From Deltaproteobacteria bacterium (GTDB lineage Bacteria; Myxococcota_A; UBA9042; DTJE01): a stretch of DNA of 64,000 nt. Below, piece by piece: positions 10,217 to 13,753 of the stretch; position 1 is the first letter of the stretch; each line of letters opens with the position of its first letter. The translations under genes were made by a program, and so were the position numbers. The notes beneath the pieces were generated by a model, which did not search any database, had not been told where the DNA came from, and saw only the letters and a list, made by a program, of their open reading frames with translations. Where the stretch lies: the NCBI GenBank assembly GCA_029547805.1, contig JAKPOP010000014.1:124001-188000 (forward strand), in the 5' to 3' direction.

Positions 10217-10245
10217 ATCATGCAAGAGACACCGCGGGCCGTCAA
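10217..10245 (-). promoter_or_regulatory. predicted icmF promoter, leaderless
   Basis: On the minus strand TTGACG (10245-10240), a 17-base spacer and CATGAT (10222-10217). The -35 contains the TGA stop codon of the upstream channel gene. The expected RNA start falls within a base or two of ATG 10209. Confidence 0.55.
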
Positions 10246-12890
10246 CCGCTCCGCGGATGCCGGACGCGTCCCCTGGGGAAGGCACCATCGACGGCTTCCA
10301 CGAGCGTCTTTTCGTCCTCGGCAAGGGCGATCAGCGAATCGCCGTCCTCGAGCAGGAACCGGGAGGGCGGGTTCAGGAGGACCTTTCCGGGCAAGGGGGA
10401 ACAGGGGGACTGGAGCAACCAGGCCCGGACGTCGGCAGCGGACTCGGTCGCGGCCGGCAGACAGTCGGGGTCGCCCGAAGGTCGGAAGATCCCGATCGGC
10501 ACGACCCCGGATCGCCGGCTGCCCCGAACGAGCGCCTCTCGGAGCGCGCGCCAGGTTCGGGACGCGGAGGAACGGGGGAGCAGGGCCGTCCAGATCTCCG
10601 CATTGCAGTTCTGGTACGACAGGAGATGGCTGATCACGGTCGAGAAGGACGGATCGAAGGCAGCCCGGGCCAGGAGGTGTTCCAGCAACAGCCGGGTGGG
10701 CGCCGAGACGAGCCAGTCGGTGTTTGGAATCAGCAGGTCGTTGGCATTCTCGGTGTCGGAGTCGATGACGGTCCAGGGGTGCCGGGATCCCCGGGAGCGG
10801 TGGTTCTCTTCGGACCCGGCCCGCGCCCGGACCCCCTCCTGCAGGGTCGCTTGCCGGGCACTCGGTTCGGCACCGGGAACCGATGCGAGCCGGATGGCCC
10901 GGACGACCCGGAGGGGGTGGAAGCCCTGTCCGGCGGGCTTGCCGTCGATCTCGGTTCGTTCGCCCAGCACGATCACCCGTCGGGAGGTCGCCGGGCACAG
11001 GAGCCGCAGGTCGGCCATGACCTCGGCGTCCAGGTCATGCAACAGGACTCCACGGATCCGCAGCAGTCGGTTCCTCAGGCGGACCGGCAGGTTCTTCGCA
11101 ACGATGTGAACGATCGGAAGCCGGAGGGGACCCGGACTTCGGAGGACCTCGACCAGGCGGAACAGGGCATCGTGGGCATTGATCACGATCACGTGCCCGG
11201 CGTATCGCTTGCGCCAGAGGGCGCGCCCGGTGGTGAAGAGCGCGGTGAGGCTCGCGGTGAACCAGGCCAGGATGCCGAGCCCGCCGAGCGTCGTCAGGAT
11301 CCCGATGAATCGCGACCAGGGACTCTTGAGGCGATCGGACTCGAAGTTCCCGGTGGCGAAGGAGGCCATGGACCAGAACGCGTCCATGACCTTCTGGATC
11401 GCCGGGTTGATCGGTTGCTCGATCTGCTGCACCGTGAACGCCGAGACCCACATCAAGGCCAGGACCGAGACGATTGGCCATGCGGGGTTCTCGAACTGGT
11501 TGCGCATGTTCCCGAGCAGGGGGTGGCGGCCTCGTTTCAGACGGTTTCGAAGCAGCCACACCGACATCAGGAAGACGGCCACGGAGACGAGCAGCAGGGA
11601 CGGGCGGCCCCAGGATCGGGCCAGTTCCTGTCGCAGCCGGATGCGGGCCGCCGGGTGGAGATCCATCCGGTCCTCGTCGCCGAAGTCCCTCCATTTCAGG
11701 CGGATGCTGGACGAGGAGACCCCGCTGCCGTCAGTCGAGTCCAGGTGTTCCAGGGCCTGGAGCACCTCTTCCACCTCCTGATCCGTGGGGGCATCGAGAT
11801 GGGCCGTATTGGTGACCAGCACGGTGTCCACGCAGATGGTCTGGACGGTCCTCGGCCCCATGCCCGGGTAGGTGCCCTTCGGGATCTCGCAGGGACGAAA
11901 GTAGGGATGCGCCTCGATCAGCCGGCGGACCACATCGTCGGGAAGGGACTGGATGGTGACCAGGCCCTCCCGGATCAGGCGGGCCACTTCCTGGTCTCCG
12001 GGGGAGATCGTCCGGATCATCGCCAGGAGATTCGATTCGGGGTTGCCGATTTCCTCGATGGCCTCCTTCCATGTTCCAGGAAACGCCACATCCGAGGCGA
12101 CCAGTCCGGCGGCGCCCAGGATCGTCCTGGCGGTCTCGTAGCTGCCGGACAGGGGAGTCCCGAAGAAGACCCGGTAGTTTCCAAGGGTCGAGAAGTCCTC
12201 GATGATCAACGGGCTGCGAACCAGCAGATGGACGCTCTCGTCTCCGACCCCCGCAACGACCTTCAGGTTCGCCTGGCTGGCGAGCCACGGGGAGATCCCG
12301 CACATCCAGAGGGACCGACGGATGTCCTGGTTCCGGATCCAGGTGGACAGGTCCACGAGTCGATCCTGCTGGGACAGGACGGTTTCCGGCGGGCAGAGGG
12401 ATGTCTTCCCCGGGTCGACTGGCCCGAACCATCCCCAGCATTGCTCCGGCAGACAGTCGCACCGTGTCTCCTGGTCGAGGCAGGGCCAGCTTCCCAGCGG
12501 GAGGACCGGAGACGTCGGTCGTTTCAGGAACGCCGACAGATGTTCTTGCAGGTCGTTGGCCGCCTCCGGGGAACCGGCAATCACCGCCTCGGAGGCGATG
12601 TCGTACTGGAGCAGGGCGAAGGCCACCTGACCATCGAGGAGCGACTCGATGTTCTGGCACGACCCGTCGCTGGCCACGATCCGCATGCGCACCGAGGCAT
12701 TGTTCGAGACCAGTCGTTGCCTCAGGGTCTCGGCGATGCCGTACATCCCGCCACCCGGTCGGCCTGCGCCGATCCGGCATTCCCGGGCTCCGGATCGCCC
12801 GGGCAGCAGGAGACAGAGGGACAGCAGCAAGGCACCGCAGGACTGGAATTCCCGGTGGAAGACCGTTGCCTGGGGAAGCGCCTTTCTCAT
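10242..12890 (-). CDS. TAXI solute-binding domain fused to CASTOR/POLLUX-like ion channel with RCK domain
   Basis: About 882 residues. Order: signal sequence (about 17-32); periplasmic TAXI-family (TRAP-type, NMT1-like) solute-binding domain (about 40-425), shown by GAGRPGGGMYGIAETL and NIESLLDGQVAFALLQYD; a Cys-rich insert at 137-166; transmembrane helices at about 430-447 and 470-488; pore helix and filter DAFWSMASFATGNF (about 503-516); inner helix about 526-552; then a cytoplasmic Rossmann-type RCK domain (HVIVINAHDALFRLVEVL onward) with a C-terminal RCK_C-like tail. The pore resembles CASTOR/POLLUX (DALWxxxxFVADSGN) rather than the potassium TVGYG filter. It ends 32 bases before the icmF start and overlaps its upstream partner as ATGA. 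The architecture implies a channel gated by an extracytoplasmic ligand, like GluR0 but with an unrelated sensor. Domains are convincing; ligand and ion are unknown. Confidence 0.85.
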   Translation of the reverse strand: MRKALPQATVFHREFQSCGALLLSLCLLLPGRSGARECRIGAGRPGGGMYGIAETLRQRLVSNNASVRMRIVASDGSCQNIESLLDGQVAFALLQYDIASEAVIAGSPEAANDLQEHLSAFLKRPTSPVLPLGSWPCLDQETRCDCLPEQCWGWFGPVDPGKTSLCPPETVLSQQDRLVDLSTWIRNQDIRRSLWMCGISPWLASQANLKVVAGVGDESVHLLVRSPLIIEDFSTLGNYRVFFGTPLSGSYETARTILGAAGLVASDVAFPGTWKEAIEEIGNPESNLLAMIRTISPGDQEVARLIREGLVTIQSLPDDVVRRLIEAHPYFRPCEIPKGTYPGMGPRTVQTICVDTVLVTNTAHLDAPTDQEVEEVLQALEHLDSTDGSGVSSSSIRLKWRDFGDEDRMDLHPAARIRLRQELARSWGRPSLLLVSVAVFLMSVWLLRNRLKRGRHPLLGNMRNQFENPAWPIVSVLALMWVSAFTVQQIEQPINPAIQKVMDAFWSMASFATGNFESDRLKSPWSRFIGILTTLGGLGILAWFTASLTALFTTGRALWRKRYAGHVIVINAHDALFRLVEVLRSPGPLRLPIVHIVAKNLPVRLRNRLLRIRGVLLHDLDAEVMADLRLLCPATSRRVIVLGERTEIDGKPAGQGFHPLRVVRAIRLASVPGAEPSARQATLQEGVRARAGSEENHRSRGSRHPWTVIDSDTENANDLLIPNTDWLVSAPTRLLLEHLLARAAFDPSFSTVISHLLSYQNCNAEIWTALLPRSSASRTWRALREALVRGSRRSGVVPIGIFRPSGDPDCLPAATESAADVRAWLLQSPCSPLPGKVLLNPPSRFLLEDGDSLIALAEDEKTLVEAVDGAFPRGRVRHPRSG

Positions 12891-13753
12891 GACTGCCTCG
12901 AACCGGCCCGCGAGGCCGCCTCGTCGAGTTCCTCCCAGGTGAACGTCCTGGGGGCCAGGATCACCAGGGAGGTGGCCGCCGCCAGTGGGAAGTCGTATCC
13001 CGGGGCCAGGAAGATTCCCGATTCCGCCGCAAGGGATGCCCCGCGGACCAGCCGCATCCAGAGGGACCGGGAGGCATCGGCCTGGGACTGCCGCACGCCC
13101 AGCAGGGAGATGGGGGTCCCATCCGGGAGTTCGTCCAGGCCGATCAATGCGTCGCCGAAGGTCCTGGAACGCAGCGTCTCCGGAACTGGCGCCTCCAGCA
13201 GCATCTCCTGTCCGGCGATGATCTCCTCGATGGCGCGGAAGGCGGCCACGTCCATCGAGGCCGATGCCAGGAGGGTCGCCCTCAGGGAGTCCTCGTGGAG
13301 GATGGTGCAGTCCGGGAAGGTCGAGAAGTCGGGTTGGGCATCGGGGTCCGCAATCACCACGACCAGGTGGGGGGAAGGCCGATTCTTCCGGCCGGCCCTC
13401 AGGCACGAGCAGATCCGCCGGGAATGGGAGTCCGGGTCGGGCAGGGACCGGTCCGGCAGCACCAGCAGGGAATGGGCCGATTCGGGGTGGATCGCTTCGA
13501 TCATGGCCTCGAGGGAGGGCCAGTCCTCCGGACACTGGAGATACTCCACGATGTCGTTCCACGCCGGGGACAGGGAGGAGGCGAAGTGCGTCCAGCAGGA
13601 GGGGTCGCCCTTGCCGACCAGGAGGATCCGGAGACACCGCGGAAGGGAGGCGGAGGGAATCGTCCCGGCATGCTCCAGGAGTGCCAGTGGAAGGTGTTTC
13701 CACCTGGGTTCCCACCCGAAGACGAGGATGCGGCGGGGGTCGTCGTTCGACAT
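12887..13753 (-). CDS. cytoplasmic RCK-type partner of the channel (CASTOR/POLLUX second RCK-like)
   Basis: A 288-residue soluble protein starting at ATG 13753. It begins RRILVFGWEPRWKHLPLALL, like the nucleotide-binding repeat that follows the pore in CASTOR/POLLUX proteins (LICGWxxxxxxML). Later come HSLLVLPDRSLPDPDSHSR and PSPHLVVVIADPDAQPD, the same pattern as the plant channels' ILILADESVxDSxxHSDSR stretch, and a C-terminal beta-rich RCK_C-like part ending VILAPRTFTWEEL. There is no signal peptide or membrane segment. Its stop overlaps the channel start as ATGA, so the two are coupled. In CASTOR/POLLUX both RCK units are in one chain; here the second seems to be encoded as a separate subunit, upstream of the pore gene. 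A gating-ring role is inferred. Confidence 0.72.
   Translation of the reverse strand: MSNDDPRRILVFGWEPRWKHLPLALLEHAGTIPSASLPRCLRILLVGKGDPSCWTHFASSLSPAWNDIVEYLQCPEDWPSLEAMIEAIHPESAHSLLVLPDRSLPDPDSHSRRICSCLRAGRKNRPSPHLVVVIADPDAQPDFSTFPDCTILHEDSLRATLLASASMDVAAFRAIEEIIAGQEMLLEAPVPETLRSRTFGDALIGLDELPDGTPISLLGVRQSQADASRSLWMRLVRGASLAAESGIFLAPGYDFPLAAATSLVILAPRTFTWEELDEAASRAGSRQS

Follow-up and report, generated by a model that had tools for sequence, protein, structure and literature searches.

Among ligand-gated channels in which a P-loop pore is coupled to a periplasmic binding protein, the main known design is that of GluR0 and the ionotropic glutamate receptors (iGluR), with an inverted pore. 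A pair of overlapping genes, A and B, in a 64,000-nucleotide stretch of DNA from a Deltaproteobacteria bacterium (contig JAKPOP010000014.1, positions 124,001 to 188,000; hereafter the window) joins such parts differently: gene B encodes a TAXI-type solute-binding sensor, a pore and a cytosolic RCK domain in one chain, and gene A, directly upstream, a second, separate RCK protein. We regard it as fairly probable that A and B together form a heteromeric ligand-gated cation channel with an A4B4 ring, for which conduction, selectivity, assembly, gating and ligand are all points that we infer from sequence. The modules are all known; their arrangement is apparently new within the literature searched, mostly outside subscription journals: neither an earlier description of TAXI with an ion channel or RCK domain nor a report of such a channel in Myxococcota was found there, in agreement with an earlier sequence-only reading of the window that knew of no described system of this kind.

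In GluR0 and other prokaryotic iGluR, a periplasmic binding-protein fold is coupled to a pore, as here (PMC13099474, PMC2950845). However, the GluR0 pore is inserted in the binding domain, inverted and with both termini outside (PMC13099474), whereas in B the whole TAXI domain precedes a first transmembrane helix (TM0) and the TM1-P-TM2 pore, and the cytosolic RCK domain follows the pore. GluR0 furthermore conducts K+, whereas the filter of B reads FATGNF. Membership of the GluR0 group was rejected because the domain order differs; the comparison made in the sequence-only reading holds for the coupling of a binding domain to a pore, and fails for the build, which is that of a canonical rather than an inverted pore.

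The potassium channel MthK resembles B in having a canonical TM1-P-TM2 followed by one RCK domain, and is the best structural match of the pore-RCK half. Its second RCK layer consists of soluble RCK subunits that arise from an internal start within the channel gene (PMC4565861), whereas the free RCK of the window comes from a distinct upstream gene, and B differs further in lacking a TVGYG filter and in its added N-terminal periplasmic TAXI sensor and TM0. The closest solved sequences to A and B are CASTOR, POLLUX and DMI1, which also have a non-TVGYG filter with a G-N core and two RCK units per pore subunit. In these plant channels, however, both units lie in one chain rather than in the products of two genes, there is no TAXI sensor, and the filter carries an Asp where B has Ala.

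Pore, filter and RCK domains

Domain order, the homologies of the parts, the linkage of A to B, constraint on the pore and a retained but altered ligand pocket are evident at the sequence level (Table 1). The single chain with signal sequence, TAXI domain, pore and RCK described in the sequence-only reading was recovered with exact coordinates, each part being matched by profile or fold. A linker joins the TAXI domain to TM0, and two basic stretches, RNRLKRGR after TM0 and RALWRKR after TM2, suit the cytosolic side, so that under the positive-inside rule TAXI would lie outside and RCK inside.

The pore segment DAFWSMASFATGN (B residues 503-515) lies between the hydrophobic helices of TM1 (469-487) and TM2 (528-546) and is of the membrane type, contrary to the possibility, raised earlier, that it might not be membrane-inserted. 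Its FATGNF filter is invariant in all 12 alignment rows, with LATGNF in the partial sequence of locus L020, and all rows keep both an acidic residue three positions after it (D/E519) and E491 at the outer end of TM1. Across five Nannocystis species, the ratio of nonsynonymous to synonymous substitution rates (dN/dS) was 0.00-0.12 in the pore, compared to 0.26-0.57 in TAXI and 0.14-0.28 in RCK; the lowest values being in the pore fits a working pore. The invariant filter, low dN/dS, D/E519 and E491 together favour a conducting pore of the cation type.

The gene A protein has no Pfam match, and its profile matched DMI1 (2e-7) and CASTOR (2e-4), with one other match at chance level only. Its structural model (predicted local distance difference test, pLDDT, 76) matched the MthK RCK (5.3e-9, the best), LjCASTOR (7e-8) and Slo1 RCKs in Foldseek, consistent with the earlier proposal that the overlapping upstream gene encodes a second RCK-like protein, and A is homologous to the RCK of B (hhalign E 1.7e-8 over 231 columns). 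The pore-RCK profile of B matched DMI1 and CASTOR (0.002, in three colinear stretches) and the KvAP pore (0.013). Foldseek with the B pore-RCK model placed full-length MthK (2TM+RCK) first (1.6e-12, 414 columns), followed by Slo1 channels, matches that serve as fold recognition only, the template modelling scores being low because domain orientations differ. By profile, A and B are therefore closest to CASTOR and DMI1, and by fold B is closest to MthK.

A single-chain CASTOR/POLLUX-type channel with two RCKs was also found in a Myxococcota genome (locus L046, 766-2694, plus strand; PF06241 6.8e-25), with ADPGSGASD as its filter region. B aligns to this chain from the pore through the RCK (328 columns, 4e-10), and A aligns to it as well; since both A and the RCK of B align to a two-RCK chain, they are the counterparts of the paired RCK units that CASTOR and BK carry within a single chain.

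These alignments, together with the proximity of A and B to solved CASTOR and DMI1 sequences, would also be expected of a true CASTOR/POLLUX-type Ca2+ channel with an added sensor. We consider this distinctly unlikely, as the two RCKs are on separate chains, only 2 of 14 members reach PF06241 (best 0.00088), and the Asp that is essential in the plant CASTOR filter, AD(S/A)GNHA (PMC6697748), is replaced by Ala in every family member. Castor_Poll_mid (PF06241) gave the window protein 12.2-13.3 bits against a cut-off of 26.7, and with this score, the absence of tandem RCKs and the absence of the filter Asp, membership of the CASTOR/POLLUX family was rejected and the likeness kept. The CASTOR/POLLUX-like pore of the sequence-only reading thus stands as a profile likeness of A and B to CASTOR and DMI1, and not as family membership; its statement that the filter is neither of the TVGYG nor of the plant ADSGN type applies to the whole family, in which it is FATGNF.

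Three points weigh against a ligand-gated channel. To our knowledge, FATGNF is unlike any filter of known selectivity, B falls under the Pfam cut-offs for the channel families Lig_chan and Castor_Poll_mid, and the AlphaFold model of the B pore-RCK half is of low confidence (mean pLDDT 59). A filter that matches no known conducting one, in a protein that scores under the ion-channel cut-offs, would suit a transducer without conduction, in which the pore fold would act as a mechanical link from the state of TAXI to a signalling RCK ring. However, a mere link needs no invariant P-loop, whereas this filter is invariant and the dN/dS of the pore is by far the lowest in the protein, and no output domain or co-conserved partner was detected except A; we therefore judge the transducer unlikely and favour the cation channel.

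The TAXI sensor

The TAXI domain of B matched Pfam NMT1_3 (PF16868; 1e-22, 81.6 bits against a cut-off of 27) and, slightly under the cut-off of 84.35, NCBIfam TRAP_TAXI (TIGR02122; 4.9e-23, 81.5 bits), and the family TAXI profile matched the solved Thermus thermophilus TAXI structure 1us4 (1.3e-26). The TAXI fold, first placed at residues 40-425, was thereby confirmed and mapped to residues 38-365. Pocket residues were mapped through an alignment of 12 family rows to VcGluP, for which the glutamate contacts are known, with a 990-fold weakening of binding in Q93A and no Arg or Lys in the site (PMC11574862). VcGluP and TtGluBP share with the B sensor the fold and the equivalents of S75, Q93 and G156, which are retained in the family (Q in 11 of the 12 rows); the conserved pocket residues in window numbering are S77, Q95, G249, R293 and T294. 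In contrast to both proteins, the B sensor has an invariant Arg for Y200, an invariant Thr for M201 and four conserved Cys, and is fused to a channel rather than paired with TRAP. At other contacts, Y45 is replaced by Phe in the family and Met in the window, and E125 is retained in the window row only and lost in all others. Because an invariant Arg replaces Y200, while the VcGluP site has no Arg or Lys, the ligand of the sensor is probably anionic and other than glutamate.

The four conserved cysteines of the sensor (78, 197, 334 and 353) may form disulfides. The five-Cys insert noted in the sequence-only reading is present (C137, C144, C146, C151 and C166) and is a gap in every relative; it is a local peculiarity of the window rather than a family feature, with metal binding or extra disulfides as possible roles.

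A gene for a TauE/SafE-family exporter lies divergently just upstream of A in six relatives, and not in the window (L009, 2179-3087; L016, 2887-3684; L021, 3288-4241 (-); also L010, L014 and L018); the six were grouped by clustering, and three of them were named by Pfam. This neighbour might hint at a sulfonate or another organic anion as ligand.

TAXI proteins normally serve TRAP transporters, and fusion to another carrier, GltS, is known (PMC12344293). The latter TAXI-GltS systems (BP0403 type) resemble B in using TAXI without TRAP, either fused to a different membrane protein or translationally coupled to it; this protein is a carrier there and a channel-type pore with RCK here. Both precedents would allow binding-protein-dependent uptake of a TRAP- or TAXI-GltS-like kind, with TAXI delivering substrate to the membrane part, but this is very unlikely for B, where the membrane part is a 3-TM pore with RCK and not a 12-TM carrier. 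In the window genome, the sole DctM gene is on contig C2 and the TAXI gene on C19, four of ten carrier genomes have no DctM match, and none of the ten has a separate TAXI protein. In all ten, every TAXI match falls inside B, which implies that TAXI serves the channel and not uptake. A role as TRAP component was likewise rejected, since no DctQM partner is encoded beside the TAXI gene and TAXI occurs only inside B.

Distribution, linkage and locus layout

Fifteen further B loci were detected in an all-phyla scan of 84,980 species genomes, pre-filtered by conserved 8-9-residue patterns that distant relatives outside Myxococcota may escape. All are from Nannocystales (Plesiocystis, Enhygromyxa, Paraliomyxa, Nannocystis) or from metagenome-assembled genomes labelled Polyangia, Myxococcales, Nannocystaceae or Deltaproteobacteria, and full relatives are 32-35% identical to the window B protein. 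TAXI, TM0, pore and RCK share a single frame at every complete-contig locus except L022 (4105-6630 and following; Nannocystis pusilla Na p29), where the reading frame of B is broken downstream of the pore, within the RCK, through sequencing error or real loss. Homologues thus keep in one chain the TAXI and pore parts that might have proved always to be separate genes. Gene A is directly upstream of B at 13 of 13 testable loci, at L039 and in the window (15/15), which answers the question, posed in the sequence-only reading, of whether other TAXI-pore fusions exist with an RCK gene beside them.

Of 290 genomes in the class of Plesiocystis, 16 had strong B matches, and exactly those 16 had A; in the window's own class, B was present in the window genome only (1/52). 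The rarity of the fusion, found in 3 of 284 genomes of a phylum-wide sample, is what might be expected if a chimera or an error of assembly had brought unrelated genes together. We give this a negligible probability and rejected it, as the same fusion and gene order recur across numerous independently assembled genomes, some of them complete chromosomes (Nannocystis poenicansa, for example). A TAXI protein of the window's class (L066), truncated at the end of its contig, was rejected as a further copy, having no pore, RCK or gene A match. Plasmid copies of the system and viral contigs carrying it were sought and none detected. The carriers are some soil and marine Myxococcota.

The 4-base overlap of A and B, as ATGA or GTGA, also occurs in seven relatives (L008-L011, L013, L014 and L006/L021). 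This overlap suggests translational coupling and, by itself, would point to co-transcription; the common promoter proposed earlier found no support, as no sigma-70-type site was detected upstream of A. No conserved third gene is common to the window and its relatives, nor any co-conserved partner or output domain besides A, which argues for A and B as the unit. In the window, the divergent upstream neighbour of A encodes a carbon-nitrogen hydrolase, and the long same-strand open reading frame downstream of B is presumably a fused isobutyryl-CoA mutase.

Two tandem TAXI domains precede the pore at L008 (4093-7374) and L009 (3931-7383) (+). The first TAXI of L008 carries Lys at the position of the key Gln in the pocket, and Cys197, conserved elsewhere, is missing from its second TAXI.

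Table 1. Features of genes A and B in the window, and of other channel loci in Myxococcota (positions of the latter are within each locus).
Feature	Position	Strand	Description or basis
Gene B	10242..12890	minus	882 aa; signal peptide, TAXI sensor, TM0, TM1-P-TM2 pore, RCK
Gene A	12887..13753	minus	288 aa; stand-alone RCK protein, second RCK of proposed gating ring
A/B ATGA stop/start overlap, 4 bases	12887..12890	minus	sequence
Signal peptide of B, residues 1-36	12783..12890	minus	hydrophobic run; typical signal peptides in relatives
TAXI solute-binding domain of B, residues 38-365	11796..12779	minus	Pfam, NCBIfam and 1us4 profile match
Five-Cys insert in sensor, residues 137-166	12393..12482	minus	window protein only
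R293-T294 of sensor pocket	12009..12014	minus	invariant in family; aligned with Y200-M201 of VcGluP (PMC11574862)
TM0, residues 429-447	11550..11606	minus	would cross membrane from periplasmic to cytosolic side
TM1, outer pore helix, residues 469-491, invariant E491	11418..11486	minus	alignment, hydrophobicity
Pore helix and filter region, residues 497-522	11325..11402	minus	alignment, dN/dS
Filter FATGNF, residues 511-516	11343..11360	minus	invariant in 12/12 alignment rows
TM2, inner pore helix, residues 528-552	11235..11309	minus	alignment, hydrophobicity
RCK domain of B, residues 560-870	10281..11213	minus	profile and Foldseek matches
TAXI-Cys-loop fusion, L058	1428-3590	plus	
TAXI-Cys-loop fusion, L059	680-2746	minus	
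TAXI-Cys-loop fusion, L060	590-3100	minus	
TAXI-Cys-loop fusion, L065	498-2267	minus	
6-TM split-ring locus, L047	292-1884 and 1888-2706	plus	
6-TM split-ring locus, L043/L049			
6-TM split-ring locus, L044			

Proposed working and other channel sensors in Myxococcota

In the cation channel that we propose, four B subunits would form the pore, each contributing a periplasmic TAXI Venus-flytrap sensor, TM0 and a cytosolic RCK, with TM0 setting the pore in the canonical K+-channel orientation. Four A subunits, encoded by their own, translationally coupled gene, would add a second RCK layer to give an MthK-like, octameric A4B4 gating ring. Closure of TAXI on a small anionic ligand might then pull on TM0/TM1 from outside, with the RCK ring contributing a cytosolic signal from inside. 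Such a ligand-gated channel, with its gating ring split over two subunits as the sequence-only reading had suggested, is the best fit to the sequence evidence, and none of the three findings named there as contrary to it (a pore segment outside the membrane, TAXI and pore always in separate genes, no TAXI fold) was encountered.

If correct, this would be a second design for channels with a periplasmic binding protein and a P-loop pore, combining a canonically oriented pore with an RCK ring in the cytosol, and one channel could read periplasmic and cytosolic signals alike. With the ring split, the contribution of each RCK layer would be separable by omitting one gene, which is not possible in CASTOR or BK. 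FATGNF would provide a new test case for filter selectivity, and the sensor could reveal a chemical cue that these bacteria read electrically. We see an even chance that A and B represent a new, dual-gated channel class, with an Arg-pocket TAXI sensor for an anionic metabolite outside and a two-gene ring inside. It would then exemplify a broader employment of TAXI as a channel sensor in Myxococcota, for which TAXI fusions to pentameric Cys-loop channels provide another example.

Four genomes of the class to which the window belongs encode N-terminal fusions of TAXI to Cys-loop-type channels (Neur_chan_LBD; Table 1). In the PDB, one of these proteins matches bacterial pentameric channels that include ELIC and GLIC-GABA-A chimeras. 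Fusions of other binding domains to such channels were described in 2004, with no mention of TAXI (PMC549065). These bacterial Cys-loop (ART-LGIC) channels resemble B in the fusion of a channel to a small-molecule-binding domain in the periplasm (PMC549065), but their pentameric Cys-loop pore is unrelated to the P-loop pore of B; the TAXI-Cys-loop fusion is a second TAXI-channel architecture, unrelated to B. A tandem-TAXI protein with an N-terminal transmembrane helix and no pore is encoded by a minus-strand open reading frame of 819 codons in another Myxococcota genome (L064).

Other Myxococcota loci encode 6-TM voltage-sensor-like channels with RCK, in which the filter is SGIEDKEP and not TVGYG, with a second RCK encoded by its own gene directly downstream (Table 1). 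These gene pairs would constitute another split gating ring in the phylum.

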